Below are positions 10,826 to 46,567 of a stretch of DNA of 50,428 nucleotides, in pieces. The stretch lies in the NCBI GenBank assembly GCA_020629235.1, contig JAHDDS010000002.1, forward strand, positions 45,797 to 96,224, read 5' to 3'. Source of the DNA: Planktomarina sp. GTDB taxonomy: Bacteria > Pseudomonadota > Alphaproteobacteria > Rhodobacterales > Rhodobacteraceae. Within the stretch, counting starts at the first letter, position 1, and each line of letters starts with the position of its first letter. The translations under genes and the position numbers were made by a program. The notes beneath the pieces are model-generated. The model was not told where the DNA came from. It did no database searches and was given only the letters and a program-made list of their open reading frames with translations.

Positions 10826-11650
10826 ATGAAACATGATGGACAACAATCCAGCAGCTGCGTCTATGGCTCGCTGCTTTTGGCCGCGGGTGTGGGACTTGTG
10901 GCTGCACTTTTGATGATTGTGCTTTCGGGCCTGGGATGGCCGGGATCAATTTTTGTAGCCATCGTTTTGGCTGCTGTTTTGGCTGCACTGCTGCTGTGGA
11001 TTTTCTGCCGCCCGCTGCCCAACGCCATGACCGATGAAGCCGGATCTGCCGCTGGCGGGGCAGGGGTTGCCGTTGCTGGTGGGGCGATTGCTGCCGGGGC
11101 CGCTGGCGCTGCGACCGCGCGTGCTGCAAACGCAGATGCGTCGGCCAAGGCCGCTGCTGACGCAAAAGCTGCTGCTGCCAAGGCTGCGGCGGACAAAAAA
11201 GCTGCTGAAGCTGCTGCCGCCAAGAAAGCCGCTGCTGCCAAAAAGGCTGCTGCCGACAAGAAAGCTGATGCAGCCAAGCCCAAAGCGAAAGCTGCATCGA
11301 AAGCCAAAGATGGTGGCAACGTTGATTACGATGGCGATGGCGTCATTGAAGGGGCCGATGAAGGCAAAAAGCCGGCCACTTTGAAAGCGGCCCGCGGCGG
11401 CAAGGCCGACGATCTGAAAATGATCAAAGGCGTTGGCCCTAAAATGGAAAAGCTGTGCAACAAACTGGGCTTTTATCACTTCGACCAAGTTGCATCTTGG
11501 ACCAAGGATGAAGTGGCATGGGTTGATGCCAACCTTGAAGGATTCCGTGGCCGGGTCAGCCGGGACGAATGGGTCAAACAAGCCAAGATATTGGCCAAAG
11601 GCGGCACCACTGAATTTTCCAAGAAAGTGGACAAAGGCGGCGTCTACTAA
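10826..11650 (+). CDS. Two-TM protein with Ala/Lys-rich linker and NuoE/L21-type helix-hairpin-helix domain
   Basis: A 274-residue protein in three parts. Residues 12-62 are two closely spaced transmembrane helices. Residues 70-190 are an Ala/Lys-rich, probably long helical or coiled linker with repeated AAAKKAA-type units. Residues 195-255 are a compact domain opening with DDLKMIKGVGPKMEK and continuing FYHFDQVASWT. The same domain ends Rhodobacterales NuoE proteins and the L21 protein in this window (about 23240-23470). The tail TEFSKKVDKGGVY also resembles NuoE C-termini as I recall them. No [2Fe-2S] thioredoxin-like NuoE part is present. In Rhodobacterales such proteins sit in nuo operons. 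The HHH-like fold could bind RNA, DNA or protein; its role here is unknown. Confidence 0.72.
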   Translation: MKHDGQQSSSCVYGSLLLAAGVGLVAALLMIVLSGLGWPGSIFVAIVLAAVLAALLLWIFCRPLPNAMTDEAGSAAGGAGVAVAGGAIAAGAAGAATARAANADASAKAAADAKAAAAKAAADKKAAEAAAAKKAAAAKKAAADKKADAAKPKAKAASKAKDGGNVDYDGDGVIEGADEGKKPATLKAARGGKADDLKMIKGVGPKMEKLCNKLGFYHFDQVASWTKDEVAWVDANLEGFRGRVSRDEWVKQAKILAKGGTTEFSKKVDKGGVY

Positions 11651-12031: not shown

Positions 12032-12367
12032 ATGCAGTTTCATCGTCCGCAAAAGTTGTCTTTCATCTGTGCTGCGGTTCTGGCCGCTTGGTTCTTTGGC
12101 CCTGGCGCGGTTGTTGCCCAAACCTCGCCCTTTCAGGCGACGGCCATCAAGCGCCCGCTTCAAAGCCCGCCCCAAGCCCGTTTGACCCAATGGTTCGTGA
12201 CTGTCTTCCGCAAAGACGGTCAGCCAATGCCAGACGGGCAAATTCAAGCCGCCAGTCAATTTGCCGTCGCCAAGGCCTGTGTCGGGGGGCAAACCACGTC
12301 CTTCGCGGAAGGGGTGCGTGACGGCCTGGGGGTGCGGTTCGAATTTATCTGCGCCCAACGGCGCTGA
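12032..12367 (+). CDS. Secreted protein of unknown function
   Basis: A 111-residue protein with a Sec signal peptide (hydrophobic stretch ending PGAVVAQ, cleavage about residue 30). The mature part has LTQWFVTVFRKDGQPMPDG and two cysteines near the C-terminus (KACVGG, FICAQ), probably one disulfide in the periplasm. I do not recognise the family. It ends 17 bases before the next lipoprotein gene, so the two are likely co-transcribed. Confidence 0.6.
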   Translation: MQFHRPQKLSFICAAVLAAWFFGPGAVVAQTSPFQATAIKRPLQSPPQARLTQWFVTVFRKDGQPMPDGQIQAASQFAVAKACVGGQTTSFAEGVRDGLGVRFEFICAQRR

Positions 12368-12384
12368 ATAAAGGGGCCCCGGTG

Positions 12385-12774
12385 ATGCGCGCGCTTTGGG
12401 TTGGTCTGTTCTTGCTGTCGGGATGCGTTGTGCCGTCGACAGACACAGCACCGCAAGCCCCCGCATTCGGGCGCTATATCGGGTCGGAAACGCGGCTTTT
12501 GGACGGGGATTTGGTGAACTTCAAAGTCCGCATGGAAGGCGGCCTGACGCGGCAAAACTTGATCGACTATGCCGAATGCGTCGCGGCGCAGTACACGTTG
12601 GTGCGCGGCTATGCGTTTGCACGTCATGTTCGCACGACGGTAACCCGCAACGGAAATCTGTGGGTCGGTGACGCTATTTATACTATCTCGGCCACGATCC
12701 CACGCGGATTGCGCACGATCGAAGCGGACATCATCGTCGAATCCTGTGCGGCCCGCGGCATCCCGACGGTTTGA
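12385..12774 (+). CDS. Small lipoprotein of unknown function
   Basis: A 129-residue protein with lipobox LLSGC (Cys about residue 14). The mature part contains GGLTRQNLIDYAECVAAQY, then GYAFARHVRT and a strand-rich end, with two more cysteines (AEC and ESC), probably one disulfide. I have the impression of seeing similar Rhodobacterales proteins near nuo genes, but cannot verify this. The ATG at 12385 follows an in-frame GTG by one codon. It is the last small gene before the NuoL-like gene, 206 bases away. Confidence 0.6.
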   Translation: MRALWVGLFLLSGCVVPSTDTAPQAPAFGRYIGSETRLLDGDLVNFKVRMEGGLTRQNLIDYAECVAAQYTLVRGYAFARHVRTTVTRNGNLWVGDAIYTISATIPRGLRTIEADIIVESCAARGIPTV

Positions 12775-12980
12775 ACGCACGGCCACTGGCATCGCCGCTG
12801 CGCCCGACAATATCATGAATTGTGAACGATCCCCCCTCGCAAATGGGTCCGATTGGCGCTAGCCATCTGGGGGTGGGCGGCTATGTTGCCTGTCACGGGT
12901 CGCGCAATCGAAGGCTGCAGGTCGATGCAAATCAGTGGAATTGGACATCTGCCCCAACGGCACCGGAGCGGGAATTTTTC

Positions 12981-14999
12981 ATGTCCCTTGCAGTAATCAT
13001 GGTTTTTCTGCCCCTTTTGGGCGCTGCGATCTGCGGCCTAGTTTGGCGCTGGATCGGCGAAGGCTTAGCCATTTGGACCGCGACCTGTGCCAGTCTGATC
13101 AGCGCGCTTTTGGCCTGGTCAGTGTTCTTGAATGTGTCCGGCCCGGTTGATGTTGCAGTTTTGGGCAGTTGGTTGGTCAGTGGAAGTATCGGCTTGGACT
13201 GGGCGGTGCGCGTGGACCGCGTCAGCATGCTGTGCGCCGTGACCATCACGTCGGTCACTGCTTTGGTGGCGGTGTACAGCCATCGTGGCCTGCGGTGCGA
13301 AGATCACTTTGACCCCGATACGGTCTATCGCCCACGGTTTTTTGCGGCGTTGCTTTGGCTGTGTTTTGCGGGCCTGATCTTGGTAATGTCTCACAACCTG
13401 GCCCAGCTTTTGGCGGGATGGGGCGGCGTTACCTTGGGGGTGATGCTTATGATGGGGTTCCGGGATCGCACCACAAACGCCACCAAGGCGGCCACCGGGG
13501 CCGCTGTGGTATTCGCGCTGGCGGGCATGATGATGGGCTTGGCCGCTGCGATTTTATTCCTTCAATTCGACGCCCTGCGTTTTGACGACATCGCTGTTCT
13601 TTCGCCGGGGGCCAACACGGTTGCGCTGTTTGGCGCGGCCTGGCCCACGACAAATATCGTGGCGGCGCTTTTGGTGGCCGCTGCGCTGCTTTCAGCCGCA
13701 CAGTTCCCATTCCAATCGTGGCTGTTGGCAGGCGTTGATACCCCGTCACCCGCCATGGCGCTGGTTCAATCGACAATCTTGCCTATGGCCAGCCTGTTTG
13801 TGCTGTTGCGATTTTTTCCGGTTCTTGAATTCGCCCCAAATGTGATGGTTTGGCTGATGGTATTTGGTATCGCCACGGCCCTGTTCGGCGGGCTGTGCGC
13901 CCTTGTGCAAACCGACATCAGACAGGCCTTGGCCTGTATCGGCGTCGCACAATTGGGATTGATTTTCGCAGCGGTGGGTCTGGGTGCGCCCACCGTGGCG
14001 TTGTGGCAAGCGGTGATCTTTGCGGCCCACCAATCGGTGTTGATTTTGGGGGCAGGATCGGTTGTGCGGGCCATGGGCGGCGCATCGGACTTGGGCGCTT
14101 TCGGTGGGTTGCGCGCAAAGATGCCTGTTACGTTTTGGGCCATGGTGGCTGGCGCGTTGTCAACGGCAGGGATCGGACTGCCTGGGCTGACGGTCGGGTT
14201 TGCGGGTTTTGCGCCCCGTACCGCGTTGGCAGAGGTGGCGGCAAGCGCTGGCCCACCCTGGGTTCTGGCCGCCCTGGGTGTTGGATCACTGGTGCTGGCC
14301 TGCGCCGTAACGCGCGTGGTAATCTTGTGTTTTATGGGCCCCGCCCGCGGCCCGAAAGAGGCGCATAAGTCAGCCACCGAAAGTGCTGGTGCCATGCTTG
14401 CGCCACTGGGCGTATTGGCCGTAGTTTGCGTGATCGGCGGGGTGTTTTGGCAGGGTTCATTCTATCACCAACCGCAGCAGGTTTCGGTCTGGTTTGGACA
14501 AACCGAAGTGGCGCTGGCGCCAAAAGAGGCGGTCGCCAAGGATAAGGACAATTTGCCAACCCCAGTACCAGCGCAACAGGCCGGTCTGGTTTGGACGAAA
14601 GGCGGCGCGGTATTGCAAAATGCCCGCGCCGTGCCTGCCACCGCTTCTTTGGCGGTCTGGGGTGCAGGGCTTCTGGGACTGTTACTGGCCTTCGGGTGGG
14701 TGCCGCGCATGGACCTTGGTCGCAGATCTTCGACATCCCCGGTCCGGCGGTATTTTTCACAGGCTGGCGGCCTTGATCGTGTATGGGACAGGCTTGTGGG
14801 CATACCGGCGCAGTGGTTTGGCCGCACCTTGGGGCGATGGGGTGATGATTGGGTTTTTGACGGCGTGGCACAGGCCATGGCCGGGCTTCTGGCCAAAGCG
14901 TTTCAGGGTCGCCCAGGGGCACACTTCACCTTTGTAATGGCCGTCGTGTTGGGAATCATGGGGCTTGTGATTTGGATCACAGGCATGGGGGTCAGCTGA
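12981..14999 (+). CDS. NuoL-like antiporter subunit lacking the proton-channel residues
   Basis: A 672-residue, about 16-TM protein clearly homologous to complex I subunit NuoL, aligned by eye to my memory of E. coli NuoL. Scaffold motifs remain: FFAALLW, AGWGGVTLGVMLMMGF, AAQFPFQSWL, PSPAMALVQS, ALVQTDIRQALA, GAGSVV, GGLR and the C-terminal traverse-helix and last-TM region. But the key ionisable residues are replaced: Glu144 by Gly148, Asp178 by Gly, Lys229 by Ser238, His254 by Gln263, Lys342 by Gln351, Lys399 by Phe410, Asp400 by Ala. The frame is intact and full length. Start ATG 12981 has GGAG 12 bases upstream and matches the NuoL N-terminus. The stop overlaps the NuoM-like ATG. It cannot pump protons as NuoL does; a structural role is inferred. 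Confidence 0.88.
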   Translation: MSLAVIMVFLPLLGAAICGLVWRWIGEGLAIWTATCASLISALLAWSVFLNVSGPVDVAVLGSWLVSGSIGLDWAVRVDRVSMLCAVTITSVTALVAVYSHRGLRCEDHFDPDTVYRPRFFAALLWLCFAGLILVMSHNLAQLLAGWGGVTLGVMLMMGFRDRTTNATKAATGAAVVFALAGMMMGLAAAILFLQFDALRFDDIAVLSPGANTVALFGAAWPTTNIVAALLVAAALLSAAQFPFQSWLLAGVDTPSPAMALVQSTILPMASLFVLLRFFPVLEFAPNVMVWLMVFGIATALFGGLCALVQTDIRQALACIGVAQLGLIFAAVGLGAPTVALWQAVIFAAHQSVLILGAGSVVRAMGGASDLGAFGGLRAKMPVTFWAMVAGALSTAGIGLPGLTVGFAGFAPRTALAEVAASAGPPWVLAALGVGSLVLACAVTRVVILCFMGPARGPKEAHKSATESAGAMLAPLGVLAVVCVIGGVFWQGSFYHQPQQVSVWFGQTEVALAPKEAVAKDKDNLPTPVPAQQAGLVWTKGGAVLQNARAVPATASLAVWGAGLLGLLLAFGWVPRMDLGRRSSTSPVRRYFSQAGGLDRVWDRLVGIPAQWFGRTLGRWGDDWVFDGVAQAMAGLLAKAFQGRPGAHFTFVMAVVLGIMGLVIWITGMGVS

Positions 15000-16516
15000 T
15001 GGACAATTTGCTGACAATCATCATTTTCACCCCCTTGTTGGCCGCCTTGATCATGGGGTTCTTGTTGAAAGGCAGCGATGCTGCGGCAATGAAAAACGCC
15101 AGGTATCTCGGGCTGTACGGAACTTTGGCCACGCTTTTTGTGGCGCTGTTTTTGTTGGCAGAATTCGACCGTGGCGATCCTGGCTTTCAGTTTGTCGAAC
15201 ATCACGCCTGGTATTTTGGGCTTAGCTACAAAGTTGGGGTCGACGGGATTAGCGCGGTTTTGGTGTTGGCCACGGTGTTGATCATGCCCGTGGTCATTCT
15301 GTCGACATGGACCATGACCCATCGGGTCAAGGAATTGATGATTGGCTTGCTGACGCTTCAAACCACTGTTCTTGGGGCATTGGCGGCTTTGGACCTGGCG
15401 CTTTTTTTCGTGTTGGCCCTGGGCAGCGCTGTGCTTTTGGTCCTTGTGATCGGTGTTTGGGGGCGTGACGCCAGCGCGGCTGCGGCCACGAAACTGGCGC
15501 TTTACACGGCCCTGGGTGGGGCAGTTCTGGGGGCTGCCATGGTGGCCATGGCGCGCACGGGGCCCGGTGCCGACATTGCTGATTTGGTAATCCACAATTT
15601 TTCTACGGCCCCGGTGTCTGTCCTGGGATTCGCCATTCCAGGCGGCATGCAGGGCGTGATGCTGATCGGGCTTTTGGTGGGGGCGGCGGTATGGACGGCC
15701 GCCTGGCCGTACCACGCATGGTTGCCACAAGCGTTGCACCAAGCGCCGCCCGTTGCGGCCTTTGTTGCGGTGGCCCTGGTTGCGAAATTGGGGGCCTATG
15801 CGTTGATCAGGTTGGGTTTGCCAGTGTTTCCTGTGGCGGGCCAAGCCATGCAACCTATCTGGCTGTGGCTGGCGGCTGTCGGCACGGTCTGGGCCGCCCT
15901 GGTGGCATTGGTGCAAACGGACTTGCGCCGCATTCTGGCGTACGGGTTCACCGCGCACATGGGTTTGGTGCTGATGGGCATTTTGTCGGCCACGCAGCAG
16001 GGCTTGGATGGGGCGATCCTGCTGTTGCTGGCCGGGGGTGTGGTCTTCGGCGGGCTGGCGGTTGCGGTTCAAATCATCACCGACCGAGGTGCCGATGCGT
16101 CGCTGACCAACCTGGGCGGTCTGATCCAACGCATGCCGCATTTCGCGGGTCTGATGGCGGTCTTCGTCTTGGGCTTGATGATCGTGCCGGGCACGGGTTC
16201 CTTCGCGGGCGTGTTCCTGGTGGTCTTGGGGGCCTTTGGGGCTGCGCCGGCCGCTGTGTTGGTGGCTTGTATCGGTGTCCCAGTTTTGGCCGCTGTCGGG
16301 TGGGGGATGTACCGCCGCGCGATGTTGGGCGAATTGATGCGTGCCAGCTTGAAAGGCTTGTCCGACGTGACACCACGTGAAGCGCTGGTGCTTTCGCTTT
16401 TGGCCTTGGGGATCATCGGTCTTGGCCTTGCGCCAGGGGCGTTACTTGAATTCACCGACACCACCGTCGCTGGCTTGCTGGACGCGCGCGCTGCGGCCCT
16501 TGCCGCAACCAACTGA
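14999..16516 (+). CDS. NuoM-like antiporter subunit lacking most proton-channel residues
   Basis: A 505-residue, about 14-TM protein with strong similarity to alphaproteobacterial NuoM: FQFVEHHAW near 65, YKVGVDGIS near 78, WPYHAWLP near 236, VALVQTDLRR near 302, AHMGLVLMG, VPGTGSFAG near 396, and DVTPREAL near the C-terminus. Compared with E. coli NuoM from memory, Glu144 is Leu141, Lys234 is Trp232, His322 is Gly346 and the terminal Glu407 is Val405; only Lys265 (Lys263 here) survives. The LPDAH motif is LPQAL. The gene is intact, starts in an ATG overlapping the NuoL-like TGA, and ends 7 bases before birA, where nuoN usually lies. With its partner it looks like a non-pumping relic or a repurposed pair. 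Confidence 0.88.
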   Translation: MDNLLTIIIFTPLLAALIMGFLLKGSDAAAMKNARYLGLYGTLATLFVALFLLAEFDRGDPGFQFVEHHAWYFGLSYKVGVDGISAVLVLATVLIMPVVILSTWTMTHRVKELMIGLLTLQTTVLGALAALDLALFFVLALGSAVLLVLVIGVWGRDASAAAATKLALYTALGGAVLGAAMVAMARTGPGADIADLVIHNFSTAPVSVLGFAIPGGMQGVMLIGLLVGAAVWTAAWPYHAWLPQALHQAPPVAAFVAVALVAKLGAYALIRLGLPVFPVAGQAMQPIWLWLAAVGTVWAALVALVQTDLRRILAYGFTAHMGLVLMGILSATQQGLDGAILLLLAGGVVFGGLAVAVQIITDRGADASLTNLGGLIQRMPHFAGLMAVFVLGLMIVPGTGSFAGVFLVVLGAFGAAPAAVLVACIGVPVLAAVGWGMYRRAMLGELMRASLKGLSDVTPREALVLSLLALGIIGLGLAPGALLEFTDTTVAGLLDARAAALAATN

Positions 16517-16523
16517 GGCGGTG

Positions 16524-17267
16524 ATGGCCCAAAGTCCACCCGTGGGCGTGTCTGTCGATTGGCACGACAACGTGACGTCCACCATGGATTTGGCCAGCAG
16601 TGTGACCGTGGATCCGGGCCAGCAACACTGGATCATGGCCCGCCACCAATCGGCCGCACGCGGTCGGCGGGGACGATCTTGGCTTGCAACCGACGCCGCC
16701 TTTTCAGGCACCGTTGTGTTGAACCCAAATTGCCCGCCTCAGGACGCCGCCCTGCGGTCTTTCGTTGCTGCCTGTGCGCTGTTTGACGCGTTGGCAGGGT
16801 ATGTCCCGGCTGCACTGTTGGCGCAAAAGTGGCCAAATGACGTGCTGCTGCAGGGGGGTAAAGTGGCGGGCATTTTGTTGGAAGCGTCTTCCAGTGGGGG
16901 CCGGGTCACCCAATTGGCGATCGGCATCGGCATCAACTTGGGGCGCGCGCCCCGCGATGTTCCGGATGCCGCTTTTGCGCCGGTGGGACTGGCGGATGTC
17001 ACCCCGTCTTTCCCAAGCGCGTCAGAGTTTTTGCCGGTTTTGGCCAAGCATCTGCAAATATGGGAAACGGTCATGGCAACCCAAGGCTTCGGGCCCGTGC
17101 GGGACGCCTGGATGGGCCAGGCCGCGCGGATGGGACAAGCCATCAAAGTGCACGCGGGATCCCAGACGTTGGACGGAACGTTCCAAGGCATCGACGCCAC
17201 CGGAAATTTGCTGCTGTTGACGCCGAAGGGTCAGAGGGCCATACCCGCCGCCGACGTTATCTTTTGA
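16524..17267 (+). CDS. birA: Biotin--[acetyl-CoA-carboxylase] ligase
   Basis: A 247-residue biotin protein ligase: AARGRRGRSW is the biotinyl-AMP loop, KWPNDVLLQGGKVAGILLE the catalytic core, then a C-terminal SH3-like domain. The N-terminal DNA-binding domain of E. coli BirA is missing, so this is a group I, non-regulatory enzyme. It activates biotin and attaches it to carrier domains such as Lys603 of MccA in this window and AccB elsewhere. It starts at ATG 16524 (GTG 16521 is also possible), directly after the NuoM-like gene. In Rhodobacterales birA usually follows nuoN, so this junction marks a missing nuoN. Confidence 0.92.
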   Translation: MAQSPPVGVSVDWHDNVTSTMDLASSVTVDPGQQHWIMARHQSAARGRRGRSWLATDAAFSGTVVLNPNCPPQDAALRSFVAACALFDALAGYVPAALLAQKWPNDVLLQGGKVAGILLEASSSGGRVTQLAIGIGINLGRAPRDVPDAAFAPVGLADVTPSFPSASEFLPVLAKHLQIWETVMATQGFGPVRDAWMGQAARMGQAIKVHAGSQTLDGTFQGIDATGNLLLLTPKGQRAIPAADVIF

Positions 17268-17285: not shown

Positions 17286-18059
17286 ATGCTTTTGGCCATC
17301 GACTGCGGCAACACCAACACTGTTTTTTCGATCTGGGATGGGTCGAAATTTCTGTGCACCATGCGCACGTCGACGCACCATGCCCGAACCGCGGATGCCT
17401 ATTTCACGTGGTTCTCGACGCTTCTTAAACACTATGACCTGAAGCCGGACATCACCGACGTTATCATCAGTTCCACCGTGCCGCGCGTGGTGTTCAATTT
17501 GCGGGTCTTTGCCGACCGCTTTTTTGGATGCCGCCCCATGGTGGTGGGCAAACCAGATTGCCGGCTGCCGCAAACGCCGCGCGTGGATGAAGGCACCATT
17601 GTGGGGCCCGACCGTTTGGTGAATGCCGCAGGGGCCTTTGACCGCCACGGTGGGGATTTGATTGTGGTGGATTTCGGCACGGCCACGACGTTCGATGTGG
17701 TGGCCAAGGACGGCGCCTATATCGGGGGGATGATTGCCCCTGGGGTGAATCTGTCGCTTGAAGCGTTGCACATGGCCGCCGCCGCGCTGCCCCATGTGGA
17801 TATCGCCAAACCCCAGAAAGTGGTGGGCACCAACACCGTACAGTGTATGCAAGGCGGTGTGTTTTGGGGGTACGTGGGGCTGGTGAAAGAATGCTGCGCA
17901 CGTATCAAAGCGGAACGCGACCGACCCATGATGGTGATCGGCACCGGGGGCTTGGCCCCATTGTTTGCCGAAACAGAAACCCTATTTGACGCAATTGAAG
18001 ACGATTTGACGATGCATGGTCTGACGGTGATCAGTGCATTCAACAAGGAAAATGGATGA
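17286..18059 (+). CDS. coaX: Type III pantothenate kinase
   Basis: A 257-residue ASKHA-fold kinase for the first step of CoA synthesis. Diagnostic motifs are the phosphate-binding DCGNTNT at residues 6-12, GPDRLVNA near 111-118 and DFGTATTFD near 132-140, with the ribosyl-contact stretch GTGGLAPL near 220. Type III enzymes need a monovalent cation and are not inhibited by CoA. It lies 18 bases after birA and its TGA overlaps the ATG of rnj, so the three genes form one coupled unit. Confidence 0.94.
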   Translation: MLLAIDCGNTNTVFSIWDGSKFLCTMRTSTHHARTADAYFTWFSTLLKHYDLKPDITDVIISSTVPRVVFNLRVFADRFFGCRPMVVGKPDCRLPQTPRVDEGTIVGPDRLVNAAGAFDRHGGDLIVVDFGTATTFDVVAKDGAYIGGMIAPGVNLSLEALHMAAAALPHVDIAKPQKVVGTNTVQCMQGGVFWGYVGLVKECCARIKAERDRPMMVIGTGGLAPLFAETETLFDAIEDDLTMHGLTVISAFNKENG

Positions 18060-19720
18060 GCAAAAACAGGCTAGTGTACCTCCCCCTCGGCGGGGCCGGG
18101 GAGGTGGGGATGAACTGCTATGTCTATGGCTATGGGCCAGCGGACAAAGAGCGGCTGATTGTGGTGGATATCGGCGTCGCCTTTCCAGACATGGACGGCA
18201 GCCCTGGGGTCGATCTGATCTTCCCTGACTTGGACTGGTTGAAGGCTCGCAAAGATCGGATCGAGGCGGTGTTCATCACCCATGCCCACGAAGATCACAT
18301 CGGGGCCATCGGCCACACCTATGCCGATCTGGGGGTTCCAATATATGCCCGGGCGTTCACGGCCAACATCGGTCGGCGCAAATTGGACGAATACGGCGTG
18401 GGTCCCAAAGCCATCAAAACCGCGTCGCCATGGCCAAAAACGGTCAAGGCGGGACCTTTCAAAGTGGGCTTCGTGCCGATTTCACATTCCATTCCTGAAA
18501 GCAGCGGACTGGTGATCGACACGCCCACGGGACGCGTGGTGCACACCGGCGACTTTAAATTGGACGAACAGCCCTTGGTGGGCGAGGCATGGGATCCAGA
18601 CCTGTGGGCCGACATTTCCAAACCCGGGGTGAAGGCCCTGGTGTGCGACAGCACAAACGTGTTTTCGCGCGAACCGGGCCGGTCTGAAAGCACCTTGGGC
18701 GACAATATCAAAGAACTGATCCAAAGCGCCGACCAGATGGTGGTGGCCACGACCTTTGCGTCCAACGTGGCGCGCCTGAAAACCTTGGCCGATGCAGGCC
18801 GGGCCGCGGGCCGGTCGATCTGCTTGTTGGGGCGGGCCATGCGCCGCATGGTGGAAGCTGGTGTCGAAACGGGTGTTTTGGCAGATTTCCCCCCCACCAT
18901 CAGCCCAGAAGACGCGTTGGATGTGCCGCGCGGGAACCTGATGCTTTTGGTGACGGGCAGCCAAGGCGAACGGCGCGCGGCGTCAGCCCAGCTGGCCCAA
19001 GGCAAGTACCGCGGGTTGAAGTTGAAAGAAGGGGATATGTTCCTGTTTTCATCGAAAACCATCCCTGGCAACGAACGCGGTGTGATCCGCATTATCAATC
19101 AATTGTCCGAAATGGGCGTTGATGTGGTGGACGACAATTCGGGCGCGTACCATGTGTCTGGCCACGCCAACCGCCCCGATCTGCAAACCATGCACCACGT
19201 GGTGAAGCCGCAGATGGTGGTGCCCATGCACGGCGAACACCGCCACTTGCGCGAACACGCGAAGCTGGCCGAAGCAGGCGGATTGCAATCCATCGTGGCC
19301 GTCAATGGCACCATGGTGGATTTGTCCGGCAACGCCCCCAAGGTGGCCGAATACGTGGAAACCGGGCGCACATATTTGGACGGCAGCGTCCAGATCGGTG
19401 CATTGGACGGTATTGTGCGCGACCGTATCCGCATGGCATTGAACGGCCACATTATGGTGAACGTGATCTTGGAAGGGGATGAACCGATCGGCGAACCCTG
19501 GGTCGAAATCAAAGGTCTGCCAGAAATCGGCGACAGCAAAGCCGCCTTGGTAGAGGTGTTGGAGGAAGACCTGAACCAGTTCATGATGCGGGCAGGGGCC
19601 AAAACCCTGCGCGATGATGACAAACTTGAAGATGAACTGCGCCGCATTGCCCGCAAGACCGCGCAGTCAGAAATTGGCAAAAAGCCCGAGATGACCGTGG
19701 TGATCAGCCGCTTGAATTAA
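18056..19720 (+). CDS. rnj: Ribonuclease J
   Basis: A 554-residue metallo-beta-lactamase/beta-CASP nuclease with 5'-3' exo- and endonuclease activity in mRNA turnover and rRNA maturation. The metal motif HAHEDH is at 76-81; PISHSIPES and HTGDFKLD supply further metal ligands; SGHANRPDLQTMHHVVKP and the MHGEHRHL segment are beta-CASP motifs, and the C-terminal domain is present. Length fits RNase J. The ATG at 18056 overlaps the coaX stop (ATGA). Rhodobacterales use RNase J alongside RNase E. Confidence 0.94.
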   Translation: MSKNRLVYLPLGGAGEVGMNCYVYGYGPADKERLIVVDIGVAFPDMDGSPGVDLIFPDLDWLKARKDRIEAVFITHAHEDHIGAIGHTYADLGVPIYARAFTANIGRRKLDEYGVGPKAIKTASPWPKTVKAGPFKVGFVPISHSIPESSGLVIDTPTGRVVHTGDFKLDEQPLVGEAWDPDLWADISKPGVKALVCDSTNVFSREPGRSESTLGDNIKELIQSADQMVVATTFASNVARLKTLADAGRAAGRSICLLGRAMRRMVEAGVETGVLADFPPTISPEDALDVPRGNLMLLVTGSQGERRAASAQLAQGKYRGLKLKEGDMFLFSSKTIPGNERGVIRIINQLSEMGVDVVDDNSGAYHVSGHANRPDLQTMHHVVKPQMVVPMHGEHRHLREHAKLAEAGGLQSIVAVNGTMVDLSGNAPKVAEYVETGRTYLDGSVQIGALDGIVRDRIRMALNGHIMVNVILEGDEPIGEPWVEIKGLPEIGDSKAALVEVLEEDLNQFMMRAGAKTLRDDDKLEDELRRIARKTAQSEIGKKPEMTVVISRLN

Positions 19721-22740: not shown

Positions 22741-23472
22741 ATGTTTGCGGTTATGAAAACCGGCGGCAAGCAATATCGGGTTCAATCCGGTGATGTGTTG
22801 CGCGTCGAAAAGCTGGCAGCGGATGCTGGCGAAACAGTTCAATTCAACGAAGTGCTGATGGTGGGTGCCACTGTGGGGACTCCCCTGGTGGACGGTGCCG
22901 GCGTGCAAGCCGAAGTGATCGACCAGATCAAAGGCGACAAGGTGATCAACTTTGTTAAGCGCCGGCGCAAGCATTCGTCCAAGCGCACCAAAGGCCACCG
23001 CCAGCAACTGACGCTGCTGCGCGTGACGGACATTTTGGAAAAAGGCGCTGACAAGTCCGGCGTGAAAGCTGCAATCGGTGCAGGGTCTGTTGCCGGTGCC
23101 GCCATCATGGCCGCCGCCGCAGCAAAGCCCGCCAAGAAAGCAGCTGCCCCGAAGAAGGAAGCTGCACCGAAGAAAGCCGCCGCGCCAAAGGCAGAGCCTG
23201 CAGTGACAGCTGATGATGTGGCCGGTGTTGAACCCGCCAACTTGCTGAAAACGGCGCGTGACGGCGGCCCAGATGATCTGAAAAGGATTTCTGGCGTTGG
23301 GCCAAAACTGGAAGGCACATTGCACGAAATCGGTGTATTCCACTTTGACCAAATCGCCGCTTGGGGCCCCGCTGAAATCGCGTTCATGGACGACCGTCTG
23401 TCGTTCAAAGGCCGCATCGAGCGTGACAACTGGATCGAGCAAGCCGCCGCGTTTGCCGCTGAAAAGGAGTAA
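22741..23472 (+). CDS. rplU: 50S ribosomal protein L21 with C-terminal helix-hairpin-helix extension
   Basis: A 243-residue protein, over twice the usual length. Residues 1-103 are L21 (FAVMKTGGKQYRVQ start, RRRKHSSKRTKGHRQ rRNA-binding stretch). Residues 115-155 are an Ala/Lys/Pro linker. Residues 175-243 are a compact domain with DDLKRISGVGPKLEG and FHFDQIAAWG, the same type as in the protein at 10826-11650. Such extensions are known in Rhodobacterales L21. ATG 22741 is preferred to 22726 because the AAGGAAA between them acts as its ribosome site and L21 proteins begin MFAV. rpmA follows after 6 bases. Confidence 0.95.
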   Translation: MFAVMKTGGKQYRVQSGDVLRVEKLAADAGETVQFNEVLMVGATVGTPLVDGAGVQAEVIDQIKGDKVINFVKRRRKHSSKRTKGHRQQLTLLRVTDILEKGADKSGVKAAIGAGSVAGAAIMAAAAAKPAKKAAAPKKEAAPKKAAAPKAEPAVTADDVAGVEPANLLKTARDGGPDDLKRISGVGPKLEGTLHEIGVFHFDQIAAWGPAEIAFMDDRLSFKGRIERDNWIEQAAAFAAEKE

Positions 23473-44189: not shown

Positions 44190-46567
44190 AGCAGGGGGGC
44201 TGTGATCCGCCGGGCGGGCAGGCGTTTGCCCAGAACTTCTATTTCGACAGCGACGGAATCTTCGGCCAAGTCTGTGGGCAAGAAGCCAAACGCAATGGAT
44301 TTGTCCGCGTGGTGGGAATACCCGCCTGATGTGCAGAACCCCACGACAGAGCCATCGAAAAATATCGGTTCATAGGCCACGATATCGGCATCAACGGCAT
44401 CCACTTCGAACACGCAAAGTGTCTTGGTGGGGCGATCTGCTTCCGCGGCCGATCTGCCAATGAAATCAACGTCTTTCTTAAAATTGATGAAGCGGTCCAA
44501 TCCGGTTTCGGCCGCCGTGTAATCGGGCGAAAATTCCCGCATCCAGGAGCCGAAGAACCGGTCCAACCGCAGCGACATCATGGCCCGCATACCGAACGGT
44601 CGCATGTCAAACGGCTGGCCCGCGGCCCACAGCACTTCCCACAAATGGCGCTGTGACATGGCGTCGGTGAATATTTCAAAGCCCAAATCCCCAGTATAGC
44701 TGACCCGCTGCACAATGCAGTCCGCGGCCCCAACCTGCATGCGTGCGACGTCCAGAAACTTCATCGCCGTGACGTCAAAACCGGTACAGGCAGCCAGCAC
44801 TTTGGTGGCGTTGGGTCCTGCGACCTGAAAGCCCGTGCGTTGGTCAGACAGGTTCATCAGACGCACATCAGGCCCGGGGTTTTGGTCGAACCACCGCAAA
44901 TGGAATGCTTGACTGCCATAGCTGGCGGTCAACTGGAATTCATCATCTTCCAGGCAAGATACGGTGAAATCGCCGATGATTTTGCCCCTGGGGGACAGCA
45001 TCGGGTTCAAGGCCAAGCGCCCTGGCCCAGGGATGCGGCCTGCCATGATCCGGTCCAACCAGGCGCGCGCGCCGGGACCCGTGACCGCGAATTTGGAAAA
45101 ATTATGGACCTCGTTTATGCCGACGCTGTTGCGTACGGCCAATACCTCGCGCCGGGTGGCGTCCCATGCGTTCGACCTGCGAAAGGACGGGGTTTCAAAG
45201 CGGGGTTCGTCGCCTTGGGCAAAATAGTTCGGCACTTCCAAGCCATACTGCGCGCCCCACACGGCCCCCATGGCATCGAATGTGTCGTACATGGGCGTGC
45301 GGCGGATGCCCCGGGCGGCAGGCAGTTCTTCGTTGGGATAAGACACGGAAAACCGCCGTTGGTAATTTTCAATGACTTTGGGCACCGTGTATCCCGGCGT
45401 GATCCAAGGCCCAAAGCGGGCCACGTCCATGGCCGATACATCGCGATCCGGTTCGCCATCCACCATCCATTGGGCCAAGGTCAGCCCCACGCCGCCCCCT
45501 TGACTGAACCCCGCCATCACCGCGCAGGCGGACCAGTAATTGCGCATGCCTGGCACAGGCCCCACCAATGGGTTGCCGTCCGGGGCAAAGGTGAAGGGGC
45601 CGTGGATCACCCGTTTCACACCCGCCCGTTCCAAAGCTGGGAAGCGTTTGTAGGCGAAAGCGATGCTGTCTTCGATTTTGTCAAAATCGTCCGCCAGCAA
45701 TTCCTGACCAAAATCCCACGATGTGCCCCCCACGGCCCAAGGGCGGCAACTCTGTTCGTAAAAGCCGATGCACAGGCCACGCCCTTCTTGGCGCAGATAT
45801 GATTCCCCCGCCGGGTCCATGACGTGGGGGTGTTCGCCGCCCGCGTCGATGATGGCTGCAATCTCGGGCACGTCTTCGGTGATCAGATACTGATGTTCCA
45901 TGGGCAGCAGCGGGAAATATACGCCCGCCATGGCCCCCACTTCACGCGCCCACAACCCGCCCGCGTTTACCAGGTGTTCAGTGTGGATCGTGCCGTTGTT
46001 TGTCACTACGTCCCATGACCCGTCCGGGCGTTGGGTGGTGGCGGTCACCATGGTGTGGGTTTCGATCGTCGCACCCCCCATTTTGGCCGCTTTGGCATAG
46101 GCATGGGTGGTGCCATAGGGGTCCAAGTGCCCATCCAGCGGATCGTAAAGCCCACCGATCACGCCATCCACATTGGTGACAGGCGCAATTTTCTTGATCT
46201 CTGCCGGGCTGACGATTTCGGTTTCCAGGCCCATGTATCGGTGCTTGGCCCGTTCCGCCACCAGCATATCCATCCGGTCTTGGTCGCCCGCCAGGGTGAT
46301 GCCGCCGACGTGGTGCAACCCGCAAGACTGTCCGGTTAATTCTTCCAACTCGCGGTACAGCTTGATGGTGTACCCCTGCAGGGCCGCCATATTCGTGTCG
46401 CCGTTCAGCGTATGAAACCCGCCCGCTGCGTGCCAGGTGGATCCCGATGTCAGTTCGGACCGTTCCACCAACATCACATCTGACCACCCCAGCTTGGTCA
46501 GGTGGTAAAGAACCGAACATCCCACAACGCCGCCGCCGATGATCAAGACTTGGGTGGTGGTTTTCAT
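44186..46567 (-). CDS. FAD-GcvT oxidoreductase, dimethylglycine/sarcosine dehydrogenase-like (copy 1)
   Basis: A 793-residue two-domain enzyme. The N-half (1-400) is a DAO-type flavin domain with GGGVVGCS at 11-18 and STWHAAG, whose His46 corresponds to the histidine carrying covalent FAD in dimethylglycine dehydrogenase. The C-half (about 420-793) is GcvT/folate binding, with GDFTVSCLEDDEFQL and VSYTGDLGFEIF. Such enzymes demethylate N-methylated glycine derivatives and pass the methyl group to tetrahydrofolate. The ATG at 46567 has AGAGG 7 bases upstream; the ORF reading further upstream is discarded. It is divergent from a paralogue at 46709. Confidence 0.85.
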   Translation of the reverse strand: MKTTTQVLIIGGGVVGCSVLYHLTKLGWSDVMLVERSELTSGSTWHAAGGFHTLNGDTNMAALQGYTIKLYRELEELTGQSCGLHHVGGITLAGDQDRMDMLVAERAKHRYMGLETEIVSPAEIKKIAPVTNVDGVIGGLYDPLDGHLDPYGTTHAYAKAAKMGGATIETHTMVTATTQRPDGSWDVVTNNGTIHTEHLVNAGGLWAREVGAMAGVYFPLLPMEHQYLITEDVPEIAAIIDAGGEHPHVMDPAGESYLRQEGRGLCIGFYEQSCRPWAVGGTSWDFGQELLADDFDKIEDSIAFAYKRFPALERAGVKRVIHGPFTFAPDGNPLVGPVPGMRNYWSACAVMAGFSQGGGVGLTLAQWMVDGEPDRDVSAMDVARFGPWITPGYTVPKVIENYQRRFSVSYPNEELPAARGIRRTPMYDTFDAMGAVWGAQYGLEVPNYFAQGDEPRFETPSFRRSNAWDATRREVLAVRNSVGINEVHNFSKFAVTGPGARAWLDRIMAGRIPGPGRLALNPMLSPRGKIIGDFTVSCLEDDEFQLTASYGSQAFHLRWFDQNPGPDVRLMNLSDQRTGFQVAGPNATKVLAACTGFDVTAMKFLDVARMQVGAADCIVQRVSYTGDLGFEIFTDAMSQRHLWEVLWAAGQPFDMRPFGMRAMMSLRLDRFFGSWMREFSPDYTAAETGLDRFINFKKDVDFIGRSAAEADRPTKTLCVFEVDAVDADIVAYEPIFFDGSVVGFCTSGGYSHHADKSIAFGFLPTDLAEDSVAVEIEVLGKRLPARRITAPLL

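Follow-up and report, generated by a model that had tools for sequence, protein, structure and literature searches.

An orphan NuoL-NuoM pair, its NuoL apparently without a proton path, in two NqrA-holding genomes of Planktomarina

NuoL-like antiporter-domain proteins work outside complex I as MrpA/MrpD, DabB and HyfB, and complex I itself is, to our knowledge, usually kept or lost whole. In Vibrio, Na+-NQR is reported to stand in place of complex I (PMC4014592). Here we analysed a 50,428-nucleotide stretch of Planktomarina sp. (family Rhodobacteraceae; positions 45,797 to 96,224 of contig JAHDDS010000002.1, assembly GCA_020629235.1), hereafter the window, which carries adjacent nuoL and nuoM genes. 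The event recorded there, and in a sister genome, is the loss of an enzyme with retention of its NuoL-NuoM pair, in genomes that hold NqrA. The pair resembles MrpA/MrpD, DabB and HyfB in consisting of NuoL-like proteins outside complex I, but by sequence and synteny it descends from the local nuo operon. The likeness to the Vibrio case is the presence of NqrA in an organism where no complex I was found, and the difference is that here two complex I subunits persist as selected orphans. The two genes are as follows.

12981..14999, + strand: orphan nuoL, 672 amino acids (aa), ATG at 12981, stop at 14997-14999, proton-path residues erased
14999..16516, + strand: orphan nuoM, 505 aa, start overlapping the nuoL stop by 1 base

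A first-pass annotation had described the 672-aa product as a full-length NuoL homologue with an open frame, and this holds, with both Pfam domains above cut-off (PF00361, 127.7 bits against 21.5; PF00662, 27.9 against 24.5). The top NCBIfam models were those of NuoL, yet they scored below their cut-offs (NF005141, 313.7/556; TIGR01974, 285.7/407.5). A structure model, for which 6 sequences were used including 4 ordinary NuoL relatives, predicted the NuoL fold (mean predicted local distance difference test, pLDDT, 64). Upstream of the start the frame is open to a GTG at 12822 (725 aa; extension 12822-12980); the ATG at 12981 was used, as it fits the homologues. An origin from Mrp, Hyf or Dab was rejected, since no models outscored those of NuoL and since the gene lies, among passenger genes of the operon, where the ancestral nuo operon stood.

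We aligned the window NuoL with its E. coli counterpart and with 24 relatives from the family (E. coli numbering throughout). Six of the eight replacements first annotated by eye were recovered, namely E144 by Gly148, D178 by Gly182, K229 by Ser238, H254 by Gln263, H334 by Gln343 and K342 by Gln351; the other two had been misplaced, since Arg413 and not Phe410 stands at K399, and Thr414 and not Ala at D400. Further losses were D134 to His138, K169 to Gly173, R175 to Ala179 and H338 to Phe347. None of E144, K229, H334, H338, K342, K399 and D400 was retained, so that the claim of an entirely erased path stands in that no path residue is kept, and needs amending in that two lysines, K399 and K305 (Arg314), turned into arginine and not into uncharged residues. 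Judged by these residues, the window NuoL is erased as a proton path. It differs from NuoL (ND5/Nqo12) of complex I in that the checked Glu, Lys and His residues of the path are all gone, in scoring below both NuoL cut-offs and in having no complex I that we could find. The principal sites are listed below.

13422..13424, + strand: NuoL codon 148 (Gly), site of channel Glu144
13692..13694, + strand: NuoL codon 238 (Ser), site of central Lys229
14217..14222, + strand: NuoL codons 413-414 (Arg-Thr), site of Lys399-Asp400

The same condition was found in a second species of the genus, Planktomarina sp. isolate MAG-137 (G019; contig JAHDCP010000025.1), a metagenome-assembled genome (MAG) that is 98% complete. 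Its gene order is that of the window, both frames are open in both species, and the one-base nuoL/nuoM overlap is retained in both. Its NuoL is 43-44% identical to that of the window and has lost the same residues, the replacing letters being the same or different; new states common to both are Arg at K305 and K399 and Gly-Gly-Ala at H357-H358-E359. The first-pass annotation had proposed a search for orthologues with the same substitutions, and G019 provides one in which the same residues are lost. An assembly or frame error was rejected, since a second species shows the same gene order and erased residues on a contig of its own. G019 also gave the sole match above 34% identity among the 80 of 246 relatives listed in a contig scan.

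E144, R175, D178, K229, H254, K305, H334, H338, K342, K399 and D400 were retained in all 36 relatives read, that is, 28 of the 57 genomes with a NuoL match (all those with loci given except the two orphans, and including G002, whose NuoL lacks its first residues) and 8 family genomes lacking NuoD. Because all 36 retain the path residues, the loss in the window NuoL is, on this alignment, not family variation.

The partner protein was altered to a lesser degree. The window NuoM carries E144 to Leu, K234 to Trp, H348 to Gly and E407 to Val, and keeps K265, H322 and H241; of the path residues E144, K234, K265, H322 and E407 it thus retains 2 of 5 (K265 and H322), and G019 retains 4 of 5. E407 and H348 are gone in both species, E144 and K234 in the window species only. 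Like NuoM (ND4/Nqo13) of complex I, the orphan keeps K265 and H322 and passes the subfamily model TIGR01972 (335.1 against a cut-off of 263.8), but it differs from it in these losses and in falling below the equivalog cut-off (384 against 585).

We next compared the locus with the intact operon of a relative (G013), whose order is nuoB-C-D-E-URF1-F-URFx-URF2-G-URF3-H-I-J-K-L-M-N-birA-coaX-rnj. In relatives, NuoD was identified by PF00346, L and M by BLAST, and nuoB, C, E-K, N and the URFs were named from sequence and order. The window reads mccB-like, mccA-like, URF1, URFx, URF3, L, M, birA, coaX, rnj, argS (mcc and argS labels being our reading of the window genes). Set against G013, the window has therefore lost the other nuo genes and URF2 and kept three passengers, as listed below with the downstream genes.

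10826..11650, + strand: URF1, kept passenger gene of the ancestral nuo operon, resembling the C-terminal tail of the NuoE model (146.5 bits, cut-off 514)
12032..12367, + strand: URFx, 111 aa, kept passenger gene, between nuoF and URF2 in intact G013
12382..12774, + strand: URF3, 130 aa, kept, putative lipoprotein from its N-terminus, between nuoG and nuoH in intact G011 and G013
16524..17267, + strand: birA, beginning 7 bases past nuoM, with nuoN in between in intact G012 and G013
17286..18059, + strand: coaX (type III pantothenate kinase), downstream neighbour
18056..19720, + strand: rnj (RNase J family), downstream neighbour, top models under their cut-offs

Using tblastn with the G013 proteins from NuoB (partial) to NuoN as queries, NuoA not being among them, no relics of nuoB, C, D, F, G, H, I, J, K, N or URF2 were found in the window. 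The NuoN matches were L and M themselves, and the NuoE matches were the tail domain that URF1 resembles; outside the window, matches were at chance level for NuoG (E 0.027), NuoI (0.89) and NuoK (0.98). NuoD and NuoH were not found genome-wide in the window genome, NuoD was not found in G019, and no nuoN lies between nuoM and birA. In all, at least 11 of the 14 core complex I genes appear to have been removed, with nuoL and nuoM kept (nuoA not tested). The term 'subunit' in the first-pass annotation was therefore wrong or incomplete, there being no complex I found for the orphan NuoL to join. The only two PF00361 proteins of the window genome, the orphan NuoL and the adjacent NuoM, sit beside URFs and birA, and not in an mrp operon with MrpA and MrpD. 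None of the scanned neighbours was named DabA (URF1, URFx and URF3 with Pfam; these plus birA, coaX and rnj with NCBIfam), the rest of the genome not being searched for it.

Complex I might instead be present, with the missing genes merely outside the assemblies. The window genome, a MAG-like assembly, has 124 contigs and a completeness of 86.9%, and a family survey suggests that missing sequence can mimic loss. NuoD is present in 17 of the 20 genus genomes and absent from the window genome, G019 and G005, the last with a normal NuoL. Of the 394 genomes in a family sample, itself taken from a larger group, 380 had a NuoD match and 14 did not; of the 13 besides the window genome, 8 encode a normal full-length NuoL, the path being kept in 8/8. 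Among the others, G161 and G376 have NuoL fragments only, G371 distant matches only, and the matches of G256 and G364 look like other antiporter-type proteins by their low identity and residue pattern. Against unassembled genes stand the 98% completeness of G019, which also lacks NuoD (NuoH was not sought there), the absence of nuoN and of nuoF to nuoK inside a contiguous syntenic locus in both species, and the absence of any normal NuoL or NuoM from the window genome, which together make this reading extremely unlikely. A wider family trend of path loss was rejected on the same 8/8 count.

Among the 20 genus genomes, NqrA was found in exactly two, the window genome and G019. In the window genome NqrA and a partial NqrB score above NCBIfam cut-offs, and the NqrA proteins of the two species were sisters with support 100 in a tree of 31 family NqrA proteins. 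In the family sample, PF05896 was above cut-off in 101 of 394 genomes; matches of any strength occurred in 108, the weak ones of which may be other proteins. In both species nqrB runs off the contig end after the same residues, MMLAIL (L158:1-1123; L159:11010-12132), and such matching assembly breaks in two species are an odd coincidence. Each of the two genomes also encodes a pyridine-nucleotide disulfide oxidoreductase that shares 31% identity with E. coli Ndh (L125, C96:18760-19809, in the window genome; L124, C129:15953-17002, in G019). These are the two top Ndh matches among the 20 genus genomes, are not named by NCBIfam, and are possible NDH-2 enzymes.

To evaluate how the orphans evolved, we compared their branches with those of neighbouring genes. 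In a tree of RNase J, CoaX and BirA (27 taxa), the two species were joined at support 100, with a stem of 0.109 and tips of 0.196 and 0.191; in the NuoL tree the same branches measured 2.82, 1.98 and 1.39 (G018 and G002 left out; the NuoM tree was made without G008), so that the orphan NuoL outpaced the neighbouring genes 7- to 26-fold. Because the whole of NuoL was accelerated in this way, the loss is not purely concerted, as the first-pass annotation had it. The 186 invariant columns (at most one exception across relatives and E. coli) comprise 27 ionisable ones, of which the window NuoL keeps 7, and 159 others, of which it keeps 82 (Fisher p 0.02), a result that agrees with a concerted loss; the G019 protein keeps 9/27 and 73/159 (p 0.30), and many non-ionisable invariant sites are altered too, which does not. 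With p 0.66 and 0.81 for NuoM, enrichment of ionisable residues was rejected as decisive evidence. Structural Gly and Pro residues were retained above other residue classes in the orphan proteins.

Selection was measured as branch-wise omega (dN/dS, the ratio of nonsynonymous to synonymous rates) with our own GY-type, F3x4 codon script on 8 of the 30 taxa having NuoL. Columns gapped in any of the 8 taxa were removed (665 NuoL and 505 NuoM codons kept), neither the codon alignments nor the invariant-column counts included G018, G008, G002 or G015 (incomplete or split), and branch times in the main fit were shared with RNase J, CoaX and BirA. For NuoL, omega was 0.26 in the window species, 0.197 in G019, 0.458 on the stem and 0.036 on other branches, and forcing it to 1 lowered the log-likelihood (lnL) by 59, 73 and 11 on the first three. 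For NuoM the values were 0.224, 0.103, 0.349 and 0.026, with drops of 70, 107 and 19. The tightest blocks were NuoL columns 351-400 (tip omega 0.083) and NuoM columns 1-50 (0.04), and NuoL columns 501-600 were nearly free (0.55-0.70). Since the frames are open, tip omega is raised and neutrality is strongly rejected, the pair is, on the codon evidence, altered and still under selection. With branch times free, NuoL tip omegas went down to 0.06-0.08 and a single omega fitted about equally, so that the case for relaxation, unlike that for purifying selection, depends on the shared clock. The proposal that the protein is not an active pump, retained or repurposed, is thus supported by path loss in two sister species together with purifying selection, and the dN/dS test suggested at the outset rejected neutrality.

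The same data bear on two readings in which the proteins have no function. If, after the loss of complex I, nuoL and nuoM are gradually becoming pseudogenes, the large acceleration, the stem omega of 0.46 and the further erosion of NuoM in one species would be explained. Both nuoL frames are intact, however, even though each tip spans an estimated 3.7-3.9 neutral substitutions per codon, a distance at which about 20 stops per 672 codons and tip were expected (lowest of 40 simulations, 8 and 12) and 0 were observed; with tip omegas of 0.10-0.26, well under 1, such decay is very unlikely. Alternatively, the frames could be kept only as transcription and translation conduits for birA, coaX and rnj, whose expression a stop or frameshift in either gene would interrupt, the proteins being inert, and the tight spacing (overlapping nuoL and nuoM, birA 7 bases on, coaX and rnj close behind) and the fast evolution of NuoL would fit. 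A conduit predicts an omega near 1, or about 0.44-0.73 under constraint on residue class alone, depending on the classes; the observed tip values lie below this range, Gly and Pro were preferentially retained, and removing the whole pair would be simpler, so that we consider it unlikely.

The explanation that we regard as probable is that Na+-NQR replaced complex I and that NuoL-NuoM was exapted as a passive, non-pumping membrane module. The ancestor of the two species would have given up proton-pumping complex I and passed NADH oxidation to Na+-NQR; nuo genes would have been deleted from the operon, leaving nuoL, nuoM and passenger genes. Freed from complex I, the two proteins would have kept their fold and overlapping junction, lost the proton path (NuoL wholly, NuoM partly) and then come under new, moderate purifying selection, serving as a scaffold or assembly partner that moves no protons. 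To the observed loss of the tested genes, presence of NqrA, erased residues, selection and predicted NuoL family fold, this explanation would add an order of events, the formation of a dimer and the scaffold role. A more specific form, a new two-subunit NuoL-NuoM complex under its own selection, its NuoL without a proton path and perhaps with a new cargo or Na+-NQR as partner, is put forward tentatively.

A new transport role, in which the pair is a channel or carrier for sodium or another small solute serving a Na+-based energy economy, would agree with the confinement of NqrA to these two genus genomes, with the predicted retention of the membrane fold and with the strong constraint on NuoL block 351-400. 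According to PMC4938563, stand-alone E. coli NuoL in a B. subtilis mrpA mutant behaved like the unmutated protein when carrying K229A and was modestly slowed by E144Q, which also speaks for such a role; mutations of H254, T257, M258 and V259 in helix VIII slowed growth, some being more harmful than K229A or E144Q. In both orphans H254 is Gln, M258 is Leu and V259 is Pro or Ala, and T257 is kept only in G019. Because helix VIII is altered here too, a sodium route of that kind is doubtful, and the route described in PMC9271201 can hardly run through the orphan NuoL. No substrate-binding motif was recognised in the pair, and transport seems improbable. The passive module is favoured because the proton route and the helix VIII sodium route are both doubtful.

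Several observations weigh against replacement by Na+-NQR and a passive module. The evidence comes from two genomes only, a MAG-like assembly and a MAG, with no isolate, and any activity, expression or L-M contact of the pair is putative. A partial proton path survives in the NuoM of G019 (E144, K234, K265 and H322), and the structure model of the window NuoL, with its mean pLDDT of 64, falls below 50 in the last 57 residues. Since NuoD accompanies the PF05896 match in 105 of the 108 family genomes, NQR alone does not entail complex I loss, and nqrC-F were not seen because the nqrB genes run off contig ends. With free branch lengths, a relaxed omega and a faster clock were not distinguished (NuoL lnL -12968.8 vs -12969.3), and synonymous sites are close to saturation.

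No earlier account of an orphan NuoL-NuoM pair was found in the literature searched, most subscription journals lying outside its coverage, and nqr, nuo and NADH did not occur in the main text of a 653-genome Roseobacter survey (PMC12661815). Members of the NuoL/NuoM family outside complex I are already known; what is new is such a pair with the NuoL proton path lost and selection retained. The pair naturally separates the pump role of NuoL and NuoM from their role as membrane proteins and points to a switch of NADH dehydrogenase, from proton pumping to sodium pumping, within a single bacterial genus. If the pair is indeed a new two-subunit complex, nature would here have run an experiment in which antiporter subunits of complex I gained a function independent of redox-driven proton pumping. 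An annotation as NADH-quinone oxidoreductase may imply a respiratory enzyme that is absent.

Some further observations were made in the survey. G256 (78% complete) has NqrA (locus L129), no NuoD match and only a distant 617-aa antiporter-like match (L173), and may have lost complex I independently without keeping NuoL; G016 (86% complete) has NuoD and no NuoL match. Two equal-scoring NuoL matches in G002, on contigs C5 and C13, both consist of a 56-codon and a 672-codon frame, as if one contig carrying a frame break had been duplicated. In Roseovarius sp. FR_34 the open frame of the nuoL region (L046:8004-11162) is unusually long at 1052 aa and may be a fusion, a frame error or an extension. 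In the window, URF1 also matches models of ribosomal protein L21, and a second stretch like its NuoE tail domain lies at 23245-23442 (49% over 67 aa).
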